From positions 2,972,415 to 3,036,414 of the forward strand of contig CP054595.1 of the NCBI GenBank assembly GCA_013347225.1: DNA of 64,000 bases, read 5' to 3'. The position numbers and the translations under genes are program-made. Origin of the DNA: Candidatus Accumulibacter similis. GTDB taxonomy: Bacteria; Pseudomonadota; Gammaproteobacteria; Burkholderiales; Rhodocyclaceae. Numbering within the stretch: the stretch's first letter is position 1; the number at the start of each line of letters is the position of its first letter. The notes under the pieces are model-generated. The model saw only the letters and a list, made by a program, of their open reading frames with translations. It had not been told where the DNA came from and did not search any database. Of the stretch, positions 46 to 59,338 are shown piece after piece.

Positions 46-603
46 TTACTGGCGACGACGGGTGGCGGCAAGACCGGCCATCGTCAGGCCCAGCAGGAGC
101 ATGGTGCCGGGCTCGGGGAGTTCGCCCGATACGGTCGTCCTCGTGTCGAGGCCGAGTGCGATCGATCCCAGGCCGCCGGGAACCTCGTTCTTGACGACCA
201 GCGCGAGCGAGCTGAACTCGCCGGCGATCGGAGCAAAGGCCAGTGCGATGTTGGTCAGGCCCGTGCCGTCGGCAGACGACCAGCTCCAGTCACCGACGTC
301 GACGTTGTTCACCAGTACGTCCCAGTCTACCGACTGACCCGGCGACAGCACATTCTGGGTCACGTTGAGATTCATCGACAGCGAACTGGGGTTGAACAGG
401 CCCGTAGCGAAGTAGTTCTCCGAGACGAGGTCGCCGCGTGCAACCGACCAGAAGTAGCCGATCTCCGTCGCACTGATGGAGCCAACCGAGCCCACGACCG
501 TAGCCGAACTCGTCGGGAACTGGACGGTTACACTCGCCGCGGTCGCCGCTCCGGCGACGGTGAGCAGCGCTGCAGCCAGGATGGTCTTGCGGAAGGACAT
601 CAT
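46..603 (-). CDS. PEP-CTERM sorting-signal protein (paralog of 58583-59143)
   Basis: A secreted 185-aa protein expected to be processed by an exosortase. It has an N-terminal signal peptide (MMSFRKTILAAALLTVAGAA) and a beta-rich body. The C-terminus carries the tripartite sorting signal: PEPGT motif, hydrophobic helix (MLLLGLTMAGLAA) and a basic end (TRRRQ). The start at 603 is chosen because AAGGAGAAG lies just before it; the longer frame lacks a ribosome site and would bury the signal peptide. The gene has its own sigma-54-type promoter and an upstream element (see 662-677 and 765-783). Its body is nearly the same as that of the protein at 58583-59143, including VQFPTSSATVVGSVG and VDWDVLVNNVDVGDWSWSS, so the two are recent paralogs. 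The molecular role of the mature protein is unknown. Confidence 0.93.
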   Translation of the reverse strand: MMSFRKTILAAALLTVAGAATAASVTVQFPTSSATVVGSVGSISATEIGYFWSVARGDLVSENYFATGLFNPSSLSMNLNVTQNVLSPGQSVDWDVLVNNVDVGDWSWSSADGTGLTNIALAFAPIAGEFSSLALVVKNEVPGGLGSIALGLDTRTTVSGELPEPGTMLLLGLTMAGLAATRRRQ

Positions 604-661: not shown

Positions 662-677
662 AGCAGTTTCCGTGCCA
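662..677 (-). promoter_or_regulatory. Sigma-54 (-24/-12) promoter of the PEP-CTERM gene
   Basis: On the minus strand this reads TGGCACGGAAACTGCT. It has the GG and GC dinucleotides of the -24/-12 boxes at the canonical spacing (consensus TGGCACGNNNNTTGCW); only the first T of TTGC is changed. It lies about 60 bp upstream of the start at 603. The same arrangement recurs at 46700-46715 and 59240-59255. Confidence 0.8.
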
Positions 678-764
678 GTAGCTGCAGAGCAGCTTCAAGT
701 GCTTGCTGCAATTGGATTGTGCGCCGGTCTGCGGGGCGCGAGCGAGCGACCGTTCGGCATCACC

Positions 765-783
765 CTGTAAAGTTTTTCGACAG
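765..783. promoter_or_regulatory. 19-bp upstream activator element (UAS), copy 1
   Basis: The plus strand reads CTGTAAAGTTTTTCGACAG, an imperfect inverted repeat with CTGT/ACAG ends. It is 87 bp upstream of the sigma-54 site at 662-677. The consensus CTGTAA-N7-CGACAG is also found at 46801-46819 and 59320-59338, always upstream of a PEP-CTERM sigma-54 promoter. It is probably the enhancer site of a sigma-54 activator; a PrsR-type regulator is inferred. Confidence 0.75.
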
Positions 784-14824: not shown

Positions 14825-15493
14825 TCAGACGCCAGAGCGGCTGCGGCGACGGGCGATCGCTCCCACCAGACCAAGTCCAGCGAGCATCATCGCAAAGGCC
14901 TCGGGCTCCGGAACCTGAGTCGTCAGCAGGAAGTCCTGATGATTCGCGTTGGTCAGCTTGTCGGCGAAGAGGGTCGGCAAGGTCGAATTGATGTTGCCCC
15001 ATTGCGCATTCAGGTTGTTGATGGCGGTTTGCGTGCCGGCATTTCCACTGGTGGCCTTGAACGTACCGCTCGCGAGATTGTACGTACCGCCCGTCTCGTA
15101 AATTACTTCCCACACCGCCGATTGCATGGCTGCCGATTTGTCTGCCGAGTTGTTGAAGGTGGGGTTGGCGGCGAGCCAAGTAAGCAGCCGGCTCAGCCCC
15201 AGATAAACGGGGTTGGTCCAGGCCGTGGTACCAGAAACGATCGAATACGTGTAGCTCGTATTGAAGCTGAAGCTCTGCGTCAGTTCGGCGCAGAAGGTGG
15301 TGAAGGCGTTGCCGTCGAGGGTGCCCGAGAACTGTCCGGCTCCACCGCTATAACTCGGCGAAACGACGCTGACACTGGATGGTCCGCCATTGGTGTAACC
15401 AGTCATAAAGACCGTTGACGCGGCGGCTGGAGCAGCAAACGAGGCTGCCAGGCCCAGGGCGGCAATACCCCTGGCGATTTTTTTCAGTTCCAT
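14825..15493 (-). CDS. PEP-CTERM sorting-signal protein within the eps locus
   Basis: A 222-aa secreted protein. The signal peptide is ELKKIARGIAALGLAASFAA. The body is rich in Ser, Thr, Asn and Gly. The C-terminal signal is VPEPEAFAMMLAGLGLVGAI with the basic end ARRRSRS. AAGGAAAGGAAACC directly precedes the ATG. It resembles thioester-like or TED-type PEP-CTERM proteins in layout (LLTWLAANPTFNN, AVWEVIYETGGTYN), but I cannot name a function. Unlike the three other PEP-CTERM genes in the window, its upstream region shows no sigma-54 promoter or CTGTCG-N7-TTACAG element. Confidence 0.92.
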   Translation of the reverse strand: MELKKIARGIAALGLAASFAAPAAASTVFMTGYTNGGPSSVSVVSPSYSGGAGQFSGTLDGNAFTTFCAELTQSFSFNTSYTYSIVSGTTAWTNPVYLGLSRLLTWLAANPTFNNSADKSAAMQSAVWEVIYETGGTYNLASGTFKATSGNAGTQTAINNLNAQWGNINSTLPTLFADKLTNANHQDFLLTTQVPEPEAFAMMLAGLGLVGAIARRRSRSGV

Positions 15494-33364: not shown

Positions 33365-34051
33365 CTAGCGTGTCGTGCGCCCAGCCAGCCGGATCCGGTC
33401 CTCGGCCGTGGTTGCCGCGAGCATGTCGCTGATGAACTCGTCGTGAAGTGCGTAGGCACCGGCGTCCTGCTCACTGATCGACGACACGCGCACGAGCATT
33501 CCGTCCGGAACCTTGCCCGTGATGCCGTAGCGCAGTTGCAGCAGCTTGCGGCTGAGCCCCGGCAGGGCGACCTGGTCGCCAACCGTTATCCAGTAGGTGA
33601 TCGGCTCGGTTCTCCTTCCCTGCGCGGCGACGAGTCGGCGGACGGGAAGGACGCCGGTGGACATCGCCAATTCACTCTCGAAACTCTTCGAGAGATGAAA
33701 ACCCTGCGCGGTGTAACAGAACTCCGGACGGTGAACCTGCGTCTTGTCGCTCCCCTGGTCTCCCCCATAAGCAATCGAGAGCATGACGCGCTGCCCGCGG
33801 CTGTTGACGTAGGTCCGCCCCAGGGTCTGGTCGTAGATGGCGTCCAACCTTTGCTGGACGTCAGGGCTTACCGATACCGGAACGAGCAGGGGGTCGATCT
33901 TCCAGTCACCAAAGCGTTGCGGAATCGCCTTTTCGAGATCGATCCGCGGCCCATGGTCGGCAATCCGCTGTGTCGGCTTGAGCGCGATGGCCAGCCCGGA
34001 CGCGGCGAGCATGAGCAGCAGCAGAACGACATGGCGCAGGCAAGGCTTCAT
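33365..34051 (-). CDS. epsI: EpsI, exosortase B-associated protein
   Basis: 228 aa. An N-terminal membrane anchor (LRHVVLLLLMLAASGLAIAL) is followed by a periplasmic domain with QRFGDWKIDPLLVPV, GQRVMLSIAYGGDQGSDKTQ, VHRPEFCYTAQGF and YWITVGDQVALPGLSRKLLQ. These are signatures of the EpsI family, adjacent to exosortase genes in many genomes. Its ATG overlaps the xrtB stop (34048-34051, ATGA). The exact role with the exosortase is not known; a partner in export of the polymer or of the PEP-CTERM proteins is likely. Confidence 0.93.
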   Translation of the reverse strand: MKPCLRHVVLLLLMLAASGLAIALKPTQRIADHGPRIDLEKAIPQRFGDWKIDPLLVPVSVSPDVQQRLDAIYDQTLGRTYVNSRGQRVMLSIAYGGDQGSDKTQVHRPEFCYTAQGFHLSKSFESELAMSTGVLPVRRLVAAQGRRTEPITYWITVGDQVALPGLSRKLLQLRYGITGKVPDGMLVRVSSISEQDAGAYALHDEFISDMLAATTAEDRIRLAGRTTR

Positions 34052-34959
34052 GGCGTCACCCCAGGCGTAGGCACCGCGGCACCTTCGATTCGGCGCACAA
34101 CCCAGTGAATCAGCGAATCGACGCCAATGATCAGCAGCAGCGCCGAGAGGAACAACACCATGCCGGCGAAGCTGTGCAGGAACCCCTGTCCCGCCTCGTC
34201 ACCGAAATGGTAGGTGATCAGCGTCAGCACCATGACGCGAATGACGTTGGCGGTAAAGGAGATCGGTACGATCAGCACGGCCAGTGTCACGTTGCGCAAC
34301 AGCGAGTCGCGACGGACGATGTTGAGATAGAGCAAGCCGAGCGCCTCAAGCGTAAACAGCGTGTGCAGGCCGGCACATGCGTCAGCCACGAGCAGCTTGT
34401 ACTGGCCGATCTGCAGGATCACGCCCATGCGCGAGATGGGATAGCCGGCCCAGAAGAGAATGTGCTCGGCGACGTAGGAAACAGCCGCCTTCATCGGCAT
34501 CGTCAGCGTCTCGACGATCGAACCGGGCAGGGGAATCATGAACAGCATGAAGAACAGCGGAAACCACTGTGCCCTGAGAGCTGGCGCCCCACGCGTGAGC
34601 AACAGGATGGCAGCCAGCAGCCAGATGATCGAGGCGATCTCGAAGAGCACGATGTCCTGCGAGCGGCCGACGATGTAGAGCAGCAGGCCAACACTCAGGG
34701 TACCCCAGCCCCACGAACTGGGACTGGCGCCTTCACTCGCCTGCCACATTCCCGGCCATTTCCGCCAGGCGAGCCAGCAGGCGATCGACAACACGATCGG
34801 GCCATGCCTCTGCTCGTCGCTCGCCCAGGTCGTGCGAGACAGGTCCAGCAGGCTGGGCACGTAGAGCACCAGCAGGCCGGCGATGATCGGCAGCCACGCC
34901 AGCCACTGCCCGGTCGAGGGGACTGTCGTCGGCGCGATCGCCCGCGTGCCAAGGGCCAT
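34048..34959 (-). CDS. xrtB: Exosortase B
   Basis: 303 aa with about eight membrane segments. The exosortase residues are visible: Cys195 in VADACAGLHTL, Arg241 in SFTANVIRVMVL and His262 in LHSFAGMVLF, the Cys-Arg-His set known for exosortases and archaeosortases. It should cleave at PEP motifs and transfer the PEP-CTERM proteins on their way to the surface. The ATG at 34959 is chosen because a GGGGAG-like site precedes it; the upstream extension to 35028 is proline- and glycine-rich with no homology. Four candidate substrates are in this window. Confidence 0.95.
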   Translation of the reverse strand: MALGTRAIAPTTVPSTGQWLAWLPIIAGLLVLYVPSLLDLSRTTWASDEQRHGPIVLSIACWLAWRKWPGMWQASEGASPSSWGWGTLSVGLLLYIVGRSQDIVLFEIASIIWLLAAILLLTRGAPALRAQWFPLFFMLFMIPLPGSIVETLTMPMKAAVSYVAEHILFWAGYPISRMGVILQIGQYKLLVADACAGLHTLFTLEALGLLYLNIVRRDSLLRNVTLAVLIVPISFTANVIRVMVLTLITYHFGDEAGQGFLHSFAGMVLFLSALLLIIGVDSLIHWVVRRIEGAAVPTPGVTP

Positions 34960-35073
34960 GCCGGCGCTACTCCCCGTACGCCTGCGGCCGCAGCCCGCTG
35001 CAACGCAGCCGGGTGGGCACTGGTGCAAGCTTGTCGCTGCCGTTGGGCAGGAATTTCCAGGCAGACATTTGAT

Positions 35074-45896: not shown

Positions 45897-46631
45897 TCAG
45901 CTCGGGAAGAAGCGCCGGCGACCGGCGAGCGAAGCAAGCGCAGCGCCAACCAGCAACAGCGTACCCGGCTCGGGGACGGTTCCATCGGATTTCACGTCGT
46001 GCTTCAGGTTGTCGAAGCCAATGCCGGCGCCGTCATCGTTGAAAATCGAAATGCCGGCGATATCGAAAGTGCCGCCATCGCGGCTGAAACCGTAAAACGC
46101 GTCAGCCAGTCCGCCCACGACGATGCGGTCGATAAGCGATCCGTCGCGGCGGAAGAAGTCGATGGTGGCCGACCCAGCGTTTCCGCCGACCAGCTGAAAG
46201 CCGAACTCCGATTGATCGGTCGAGAACAGGACGGCGAACGACCCCTCACCGATCGCGTTGAAGTCCGGGAAACCCGACGGACCCAGTCCGGTGAGGACTT
46301 GACTTCCAGCGTTGATGAAGACGTTCAGGTTCTGATTCGGGGCGCCGACGGCGAGTGACAGCGATGCAGTCGGAGCCCCGCTGAGAACATCGAAGCCGCC
46401 TGACGGCGTATTCGTCTGTCCGGCGAAGCGCTCGGCAAAGCTCGCGCCGCTCGAAACGAAGACGCCGTTGTAATTGGTTCCGGGCGCCGCGCCGCCGGCA
46501 ACGTCGTCGAAGGTGACGACTTGCGTCCCGGTCAGGGAAGCGTAGGCGACTTGATTGATCGGTGCGGCCTGTGCGATGGCACAGGTCGCCGCGGCACCTA
46601 ACGCTGCCACGAAACGCATCTTGATTTTCAT
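45897..46631 (-). CDS. PEP-CTERM sorting-signal protein (cassette gene)
   Basis: 244 aa. The signal peptide is KIKMRFVAALGAAATCAIAQ. A beta-sandwich-like body is rich in Gly, Ser, Asn and Phe (FAVLFSTDQSEFGFQLVGGN, IDFFRRDGSLIDRIVVGGLA). The C-terminal signal is VPEPGTLLLVGAALASLAGR with the basic end RRFFPS. AGGAGAG precedes the ATG at 46631. The unit is self-contained: terminator 45818-45857, sigma-54 promoter 46700-46715 and UAS 46801-46819. It lies between two copies of the same 200-bp sequence. Body unrelated to the other three PEP-CTERM proteins here. Confidence 0.92.
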   Translation of the reverse strand: MKIKMRFVAALGAAATCAIAQAAPINQVAYASLTGTQVVTFDDVAGGAAPGTNYNGVFVSSGASFAERFAGQTNTPSGGFDVLSGAPTASLSLAVGAPNQNLNVFINAGSQVLTGLGPSGFPDFNAIGEGSFAVLFSTDQSEFGFQLVGGNAGSATIDFFRRDGSLIDRIVVGGLADAFYGFSRDGGTFDIAGISIFNDDGAGIGFDNLKHDVKSDGTVPEPGTLLLVGAALASLAGRRRFFPS

Positions 46632-46699: not shown

Positions 46700-46715
46700 A
46701 GCAAAATTGATGCCA
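46700..46715 (-). promoter_or_regulatory. Sigma-54 promoter of the cassette PEP-CTERM gene
   Basis: The minus strand reads TGGCATCAATTTTGCT with the -24 GG and -12 GC at correct spacing and a TTTTGCT -12 box. It is about 70 bp before the start. Confidence 0.85.
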
Positions 46716-46800
46716 GGCATCGACAACGTCTGAAATACAGCATGAATTCAGCTCATTGGTGATTCATGGATTGGGGCGTCGGCGGCCTTCAGGGCTTTAA

Positions 46801-46819
46801 CTGTAAGGAATTCCGACAG
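46801..46819. promoter_or_regulatory. 19-bp UAS, copy 2
   Basis: CTGTAAGGAATTCCGACAG on the plus strand, centred about 100 bp upstream of the sigma-54 site. It matches the consensus CTGTAA-N7-CGACAG. Confidence 0.75.
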
Positions 46820-58582: not shown

Positions 58583-59143
58583 CTACCGACGACGCGTGCT
58601 GGCGAGGCCGGCCAGCGTCAGGCCCAGCAGCAGCAGCGTGCCGGGTTCGGGAGCTTCGTTCGACACGGTCGTTGTCGTGCCGAGCCGCAGCGAGATCGAG
58701 CCGTCGCCGCCGGGAACCTGATTCTTGACGACCAGCGCGAGCGAGCTGAACTCGCCGGCGATCGGCGCGAAGGCGAGCGCGATATTGGTCAGACCCGTGC
58801 CGTCGGTCGACGACCAGCTCCAGTCACCGACATCGACGTTATTCACCAGTACGTCCCAGTCCACAGACCGCCCCGGCGCCAGGTTGTTGGAGGCCACGTC
58901 GAGATCCATCGACAGCGAACTGGGGTTGAACAATCCCGTGCCGAAGTACGCCTGCGAGACGAGGTCACCCCGGGAAACCGACCAGAAGTAGCCGATCTGC
59001 GTCGGGTTGATAAAGCCAACCGACCCCACGACAGTGGCCGAACTCGTCGGAAACTGGACGCTCACGCTCGCCGCGTGCGCCGCGCCGGCAGCGGCAACGC
59101 TCAGGGCAACGGCTGCCGCCATGTTGCGCAGACAATGTTTCAT
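58583..59143 (-). CDS. PEP-CTERM sorting-signal protein (paralog of 46-603)
   Basis: 186 aa. The signal peptide is KHCLRNMAAAVALSVAAAGA. The body shares most residues with the protein at 46-603. The C-terminal signal is APEPGTLLLLGLTLAGLAST with the basic end RRR. AGGAGGT precedes the ATG at 59143. It carries the full regulatory set (sigma-54 59240-59255 and UAS 59320-59338). The group II intron sits directly after its terminator, so the gene itself is unharmed. Confidence 0.93.
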   Translation of the reverse strand: MKHCLRNMAAAVALSVAAAGAAHAASVSVQFPTSSATVVGSVGFINPTQIGYFWSVSRGDLVSQAYFGTGLFNPSSLSMDLDVASNNLAPGRSVDWDVLVNNVDVGDWSWSSTDGTGLTNIALAFAPIAGEFSSLALVVKNQVPGGDGSISLRLGTTTTVSNEAPEPGTLLLLGLTLAGLASTRRR

Positions 59144-59239: not shown

Positions 59240-59255
59240 AGCAAGAACTGTGCCA
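59240..59255 (-). promoter_or_regulatory. Sigma-54 promoter of the second PEP-CTERM paralog
   Basis: The minus strand reads TGGCACAGTTCTTGCT, a full match to TGGCAC-N5-TTGCW, about 97 bp before the start. Confidence 0.9.
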
Positions 59256-59319: not shown

Positions 59320-59338
59320 CTGTAAATTCTGCCGACAG
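59320..59338. promoter_or_regulatory. 19-bp UAS, copy 3
   Basis: CTGTAAATTCTGCCGACAG on the plus strand, 64 bp upstream of the sigma-54 site. Same consensus as 765-783 and 46801-46819. Confidence 0.75.

Follow-up and report, generated by a model that had tools for sequence, protein, structure and literature searches.

The PEP-CTERM box is, in all probability, a sigma-54 promoter combined with a UAS for an NtrC-type activator, likely PrsR, which would act across a short, helix-phased loop often carrying a probable IHF bend. Boxes, their link to PEP-CTERM genes, quantised UAS–promoter distances, an enriched and phased IHF-like site within the loop, and genes for all of the factors are observed directly. 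We also favor, with more reserve, a broader reading in which the box constitutes a three-part enhancer conserved across Proteobacteria, made up of a fixed-orientation PrsR site, a sigma-54 promoter and, between the two, an IHF bend, with arms that vary only by whole turns, such that the regulon records the helical repeat (~11 bp). The two-part box and its proposed PrsR activator are already known (Haft et al. 2006, PMC1569441). The present analysis adds two features, a spacing quantised by helical turns and an IHF-like site in phase within the loop; a search of open-access literature, which covers few subscription journals, returned no earlier description of either, a result that is not proof of novelty.

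Three boxed PEP-CTERM genes in the window

The window comprises 64,000 nt of CP054595.1 from Candidatus Accumulibacter similis, the 5.04-Mb genome of which is a single contig. An initial annotation of this DNA had reported three UAS copies, each 64–88 bp upstream of a -24/-12 promoter and all preceding PEP-CTERM genes, and motif search places every one of these elements where it had been seen. All features of these three boxes and their genes lie on the minus strand. UAS 1, a copy of PEP-CTERM box motif 1, occupies 765..783 (CTGTCGAAAAACTTTACAG; motif search and sequence), with sigma-54 promoter 1 at 662..677 (TGGCACGGAAACTGCT), 88 bp past the 17-nt UAS core. Gene 1 (46..603) starts at the first in-frame ATG past this promoter, likely 603 (or 600), and ends in LPEPGTMLLLGLTMAGLAATRRRQ. 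UAS 2 is found at 46801..46819 (CTGTCGGAATTCCTTACAG; motif search and sequence), followed by promoter 2 at 46700..46715 (TGGCATCAATTTTGCT), 86 bp past the UAS core, and by gene 2 (45897..46631; likely start 46631; end VPEPGTLLLVGAALASLAGRRRFFPS). Finally, UAS 3 (59320..59338, CTGTCGGCAGAATTTACAG; motif search) precedes promoter 3 (59240..59255, TGGCACAGTTCTTGCT) by 65 bp from the core and gene 3 (58583..59143; likely start 59143; end APEPGTLLLLGLTLAGLASTRRR). Measured from the 19-bp UAS, the gaps are 87, 85 and 64 bp. The products of genes 1, 2 and 3 all exceed the TIGR02595 PEP-CTERM cut-off of 16, with 21.2, 22.2 and 24.0 bits, respectively.

CTGTCG-N7-TTACAG occurs in exactly three copies in the window, all on the minus strand (0.00 expected from shuffles), and TGGCAY-N5-YTGCW likewise in exactly three (0.24 expected); no unpaired copy of either motif is present within the 64 kb. 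A chance origin of the motif pairs is ruled out by these shuffle expectations and by a backward control pattern with 0 matches in 399 genomes. The three genes had also been described as unlinked, which holds insofar as they form separate transcription units; nevertheless, a stretch of 59 kb that surrounds an XrtB exosortase/EPS cluster contains all of them. This B-type cluster contains exosortase B (XrtB; 34048..35028, minus strand; TIGR03113, 439.6 bits, cut-off 275), the predicted PEP-CTERM sorting enzyme, the exosortase-associated B-type EpsI (33365..34051, minus strand; NF045609, 291.9 bits, cut-off 220), EpsG, EpsF, EpsE, EpsD and EpsL, and then glycosyltransferases. Elsewhere in the genome, a second exosortase (G000:C1:4742450-4743157) scores higher than XrtB on the general exosortase model.

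A fourth PEP-CTERM gene of the window (14825-15493) has no box upstream. Consequently, the PEP-CTERM genes of this genome split into boxed and unboxed groups. Of the PEP-CTERM types, PEPxxWA is the closest to the product of the unboxed gene, which scores 33.3 bits against a cut-off of 35.

The box and its candidate regulators across the genome

A pattern search for TGTCG-N7-TTACA returns exactly 24 copies in the 5.04-Mb genome. The pair had been taken to mark a PEP-CTERM regulon, and genome-wide the UAS motif is indeed not equally frequent before unrelated genes: 17 of the 24 exact UAS copies stand before a PEP-CTERM gene that scores above the curated cut-off, or 20 of the 24 by a lenient reading that admits three copies with a sub-threshold or variant C-terminus downstream (L018, L025, L026). 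The chance of preceding such a gene is ~0.4% per site, as estimated from 36 genes x 1.2 kb over both strands of 5.04 Mb. Among the four remaining copies, three (L012, L013, L016) have weaker promoters or none. Conversely, 20 of the 30 PEP-CTERM loci examined in the genome carry a strict or relaxed box, leaving out the off-phase L074. Near 5019793, a weak pair with an off-phase spacer of 79 was discounted as a chance match, since 6 of 150 shuffles contain a pair of this kind. In other genomes, a crude C-terminal pattern, which gives a lower bound, identifies PEP-CTERM genes downstream of at least 70 of 116 and at least 22 of 30 boxes.

PrsK, PrsR and PrsT are encoded in tandem outside the window, with PrsR in the middle. 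PrsR is the single protein over the cut-off of its model (728 bits, cut-off 503), among at least eight long matches in the genome. The genome further encodes one RpoN and one IhfA, as well as an HU. It also has three IhfB-like proteins (G000:C1:985576, 2689331 and 3634469), two of which pass both IhfB cut-offs while the third falls below that of TIGR00988 and exceeds that of NF001222.

Relation to known enhancers

Haft et al. (2006, PMC1569441) examined 167 PEP-CTERM genes of Proteobacteria and found the motif pair upstream of 99; motif 2 was identified there as a sigma-54 element, and PrsR was put forward as the protein that binds motif 1. The box described there shares with the present one a 17-nt motif 1 ending TTTACA (CTTACA in window copy 2), a sigma-54 motif 32–92 bp downstream (88, 86 and 65 bp in the window), a location in non-coding DNA before PEP-CTERM genes, and a genome with PrsK/PrsR/PrsT. 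The initial annotation had offered PrsR binding as its own inference; since both the box and this proposal were published in 2006, it is not new, and what the annotation correctly recognised is a regulatory box already on record. What differs is that the 2006 description is without helical classes or a third loop element: a search of its text returned no helical spacing, with a mean and spread alone (62.8, SD 10.6, 32–92 bp). The literature searched contains no demonstration of PrsR binding to the UAS.

In Aquincola tertiaricarbonis, the start of pepA was mapped by primer extension and is rpoN1-dependent, with a predicted enhancer upstream (Xia et al. 2023, PMC9850573). This PEP-CTERM gene shares the TGGCAC...CTGCTT promoter; it is a single gene, however, and the enhancer protein, spacing and IHF lay outside that study. 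A precedent for phased spacing, within a single orthologous gene family, is provided by the LuxO/sigma-54 qrr enhancers of Vibrio, in which 61 natural loops cluster ~11 bp apart (PMC4740811). Whereas qrr represents one orthologous RNA gene family of one genus, with tandem LuxO sites and loops of ~80–120 bp, the PEP-CTERM boxes belong to dissimilar promoters spread over several classes, and feature a single UAS, loops as short as 42 bp and an IHF-like site. The placement of an IHF site between the activator site and the -24/-12 element is shared with the IHF-assisted sigma-54 promoters of nifH, glnHp2 and the D. vulgaris orp operons (PMC3897727), where IHF binding is known by experiment; for PEP-CTERM boxes, we infer it from consensus and phase.

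UAS–promoter distances change by whole helical turns

Taking the spacer as the distance from the 17-nt UAS core to TGGCAC, the boxes of the organism's own genome group at 52–53, 63–65, 73–74, 84–88 and 97 bp, with R = 0.86 near 11.15 bp (n = 22), a value as large as which was seen in 0 of 20,000 jittered sets. GTDB genome contigs were then scanned with a gap-H-gap pattern over a wide range and without phase bias, which yielded 119 loci distributed over the alpha-, beta-, gamma- and deltaproteobacteria; similar spacers were dropped by shared 10-mers, six from each of two sets. After deduplication, the main classes of this set are 42–44, 51–55, 60–65, 73–76, 83–86 and 96–97 bp, with no spacers at 45–48, 66–72 or 77–82 bp (R = 0.71, n = 114). 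A third set, drawn from the order to which the organism belongs and cleared of promoters similar to those of the GTDB contig set, agrees, with R = 0.75 (n = 30).

Pooling all 166 spacers results in a period of 10.96 bp (95% CI 10.74–11.18) with R = 0.72, while the largest of 5000 jittered nulls is 0.31. The pooled spacers cluster at ~43, 52, 63, 74, 85 and 97 bp, and 154 of the 166 fall within 2.5 bp of the phase versus 76 expected. In the own genome, five held-out boxes that deviate from the motifs by one or two mismatches have spacers of 64, 52, 51, 85 and 63 bp, all in phase. The phasing is present in alpha- as well as in beta/gammaproteobacteria, with best-fit periods of 10.16 and 11.08 bp, respectively, on small numbers. 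A Lentilactobacillus match (L122, spacer 58) was treated as chance and kept out of the pooled test. Loop lengths clustered in whole helical turns, as in qrr-type sigma-54 enhancers, are thus found across the promoter sets. The orientation of the UAS also seems to be fixed: the reversed arrangement occurs 0 times in 27 genomes that carry 43 forward boxes.

An IHF-like element within the loop

The sequence YAA-N4-TTGA(T)W recurs in many spacers; on the opposite strand it reads as the IHF consensus WATCAR-N4-TTR quoted in PMC3897727. The exact form YAANNNNTTGAW is present in 25 of 116 spacers versus 1.5 in dinucleotide shuffles, in 7 of 30 of the held-out order-level set (0.6 shuffled), and in 4 of 22 of the own genome (0.2 shuffled). 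Control stretches yield 1 of 144 upstream of the UAS and 0 of 142 downstream of the promoter, compared with 26 of 110 in the first 60 bp of the spacers. Allowing a match of at least 7/8, about half of the loops carry the element (53/116 in the larger set; 21/30 in the other). On its 3' side, facing the promoter, lies an AT-rich tract, as expected for IHF in that orientation.

Across the family, the site is not only above chance but also in phase with both ends of the loop. The 36 exact sites lie 9–11, 19–23 or 31 bp from the promoter (one at 17) and 20–21, 30–32 or 41–43 bp from the UAS (two further). Spacers of 52–53 bp split either 20+21 (L085) or 31+11 (L108 and L027, the latter with the site CAACTCATTGAAT), and those of 73–74 bp split 41+22 (L138) or 31+31 (L028). 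Since one spacer class can be split in differing ways, an extra turn can be accommodated in either arm.

In the window promoters themselves the element is weak, with one in-phase 7/8 match, one off-phase 8/8 match and one loop without a site. In the loop of promoter 2, the element (46747..46758, minus strand, CAATGAGCTGAA, 7/8) follows the family phase, with the UAS core 43 bp upstream and the promoter 32 bp downstream. The 8/8 match in the loop of promoter 1 (694..705, minus strand, CAAGCACTTGAA) is doubtful, being 17 bp from the promoter and off the family phase, and the loop between UAS 3 and promoter 3 (59240..59255) has no clear IHF-like site. The element is therefore a property of the family, and is not established for each of these three promoters.

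Sphingomonad boxes often carry TTAACC(A), a CtrA half-site-like sequence, in place of the IHF-like site (e.g., L079, L101, L128, L134, L141, L142, L151 and L155). It is found in 14 spacers, 10 of them with the sequence 25–26 bp before the -24 element.

Proposed mechanism and alternatives

Upon a signal from PrsK, PrsR would bind TGTCG-N7-TTACA, the outer bases of which (TGT-N11-ACA) form a partial dyad. PrsR would then contact sigma-54 polymerase via a short DNA loop and promote promoter opening, with the centre of the UAS predicted at about -78, -88, -98, -110, -120 or -132. A loop too short for the DNA to twist freely would hold UAS and promoter on fixed helix faces, such that the distance changes by whole turns. 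Where its site is present, IHF is probably the protein that sits in the loop and bends the DNA, and both arms, from UAS to site and from site to promoter, would themselves be quantised in whole turns. Looping, PrsR as binder and IHF as occupant are inferred here. As counter-evidence, provided that its promoter is of the type described here, the Geobacter sulfurreducens PEP-CTERM gene GSU1943 goes up (~2.9-fold), not down, in ihf deletions (PMC7962754).

The box and its phasing may be right while the element in the loop belongs to something other than IHF, such as another protein, a helper site for PrsR, or an AT-rich bend beside the -24 element. The N4 between the half-sites prefers STCA, beyond the IHF consensus, which makes no such demand, and a protein other than IHF is therefore possible; in addition, the window promoters mostly lack an in-loop site, and in the own genome phasing is equally strong where no site is recognisable (R of 0.85 versus 0.77 with a site, at 10.75 bp). 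Set against this, the half-sites YAA..TTGA(T)W are exactly those of IHF and the AT-rich tract lies on the expected side, the genome encodes IHF, and sigma-54 enhancers with IHF placed between the UAS and the promoter form a known class (PMC4740811 introduction; PMC3897727). We consider an occupant other than IHF a somewhat unlikely but tangible possibility.

The UAS could be bound by a different NtrC-family regulator of the genome instead of PrsR. The long matches to the PrsR model would provide candidates, and prsK-prsR gave no complementation of an A. tertiaricarbonis mutant (PMC9850573); nevertheless, one protein alone passes the PrsR cut-off, and the distribution of the box across species tracked PrsR in 13 genomes (Haft et al. 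2006), which makes another binder improbable. Phased spacing could also be due to the common descent of a small number of promoters, without selection, and some promoters of the sets are homologous, as the removals for shared 10-mers attest. This origin is very hard to reconcile with classes of 52, 64, 74, 86 and 97 bp before different genes in one genome, with the agreement of deduplicated, taxonomically spread sets, and with an extra turn that may sit in either arm of the loop.

As regards the box, this genome is one more case of what was discovered in 2006. Through the rule for its spacing and the element within its loop, the PrsK/PrsR circuit, which is nearly undemonstrated, becomes directly testable, and a spacing filter should sharpen the prediction of exosortase regulons. 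The many unrelated natural promoters also represent evolution's sampling of the loop lengths permitted to sigma-54 enhancers.

One strong box in the genome (L029, G000:C1:3815411+), with a good promoter and a spacer of 85 bp, does not precede a PEP-CTERM gene. Downstream are a 126-aa Tat-like small protein and then a member of the PqqD family that belongs to the HPr-rel-A system (TIGR04353); the presumed regulon would here have a target other than a PEP-CTERM gene.
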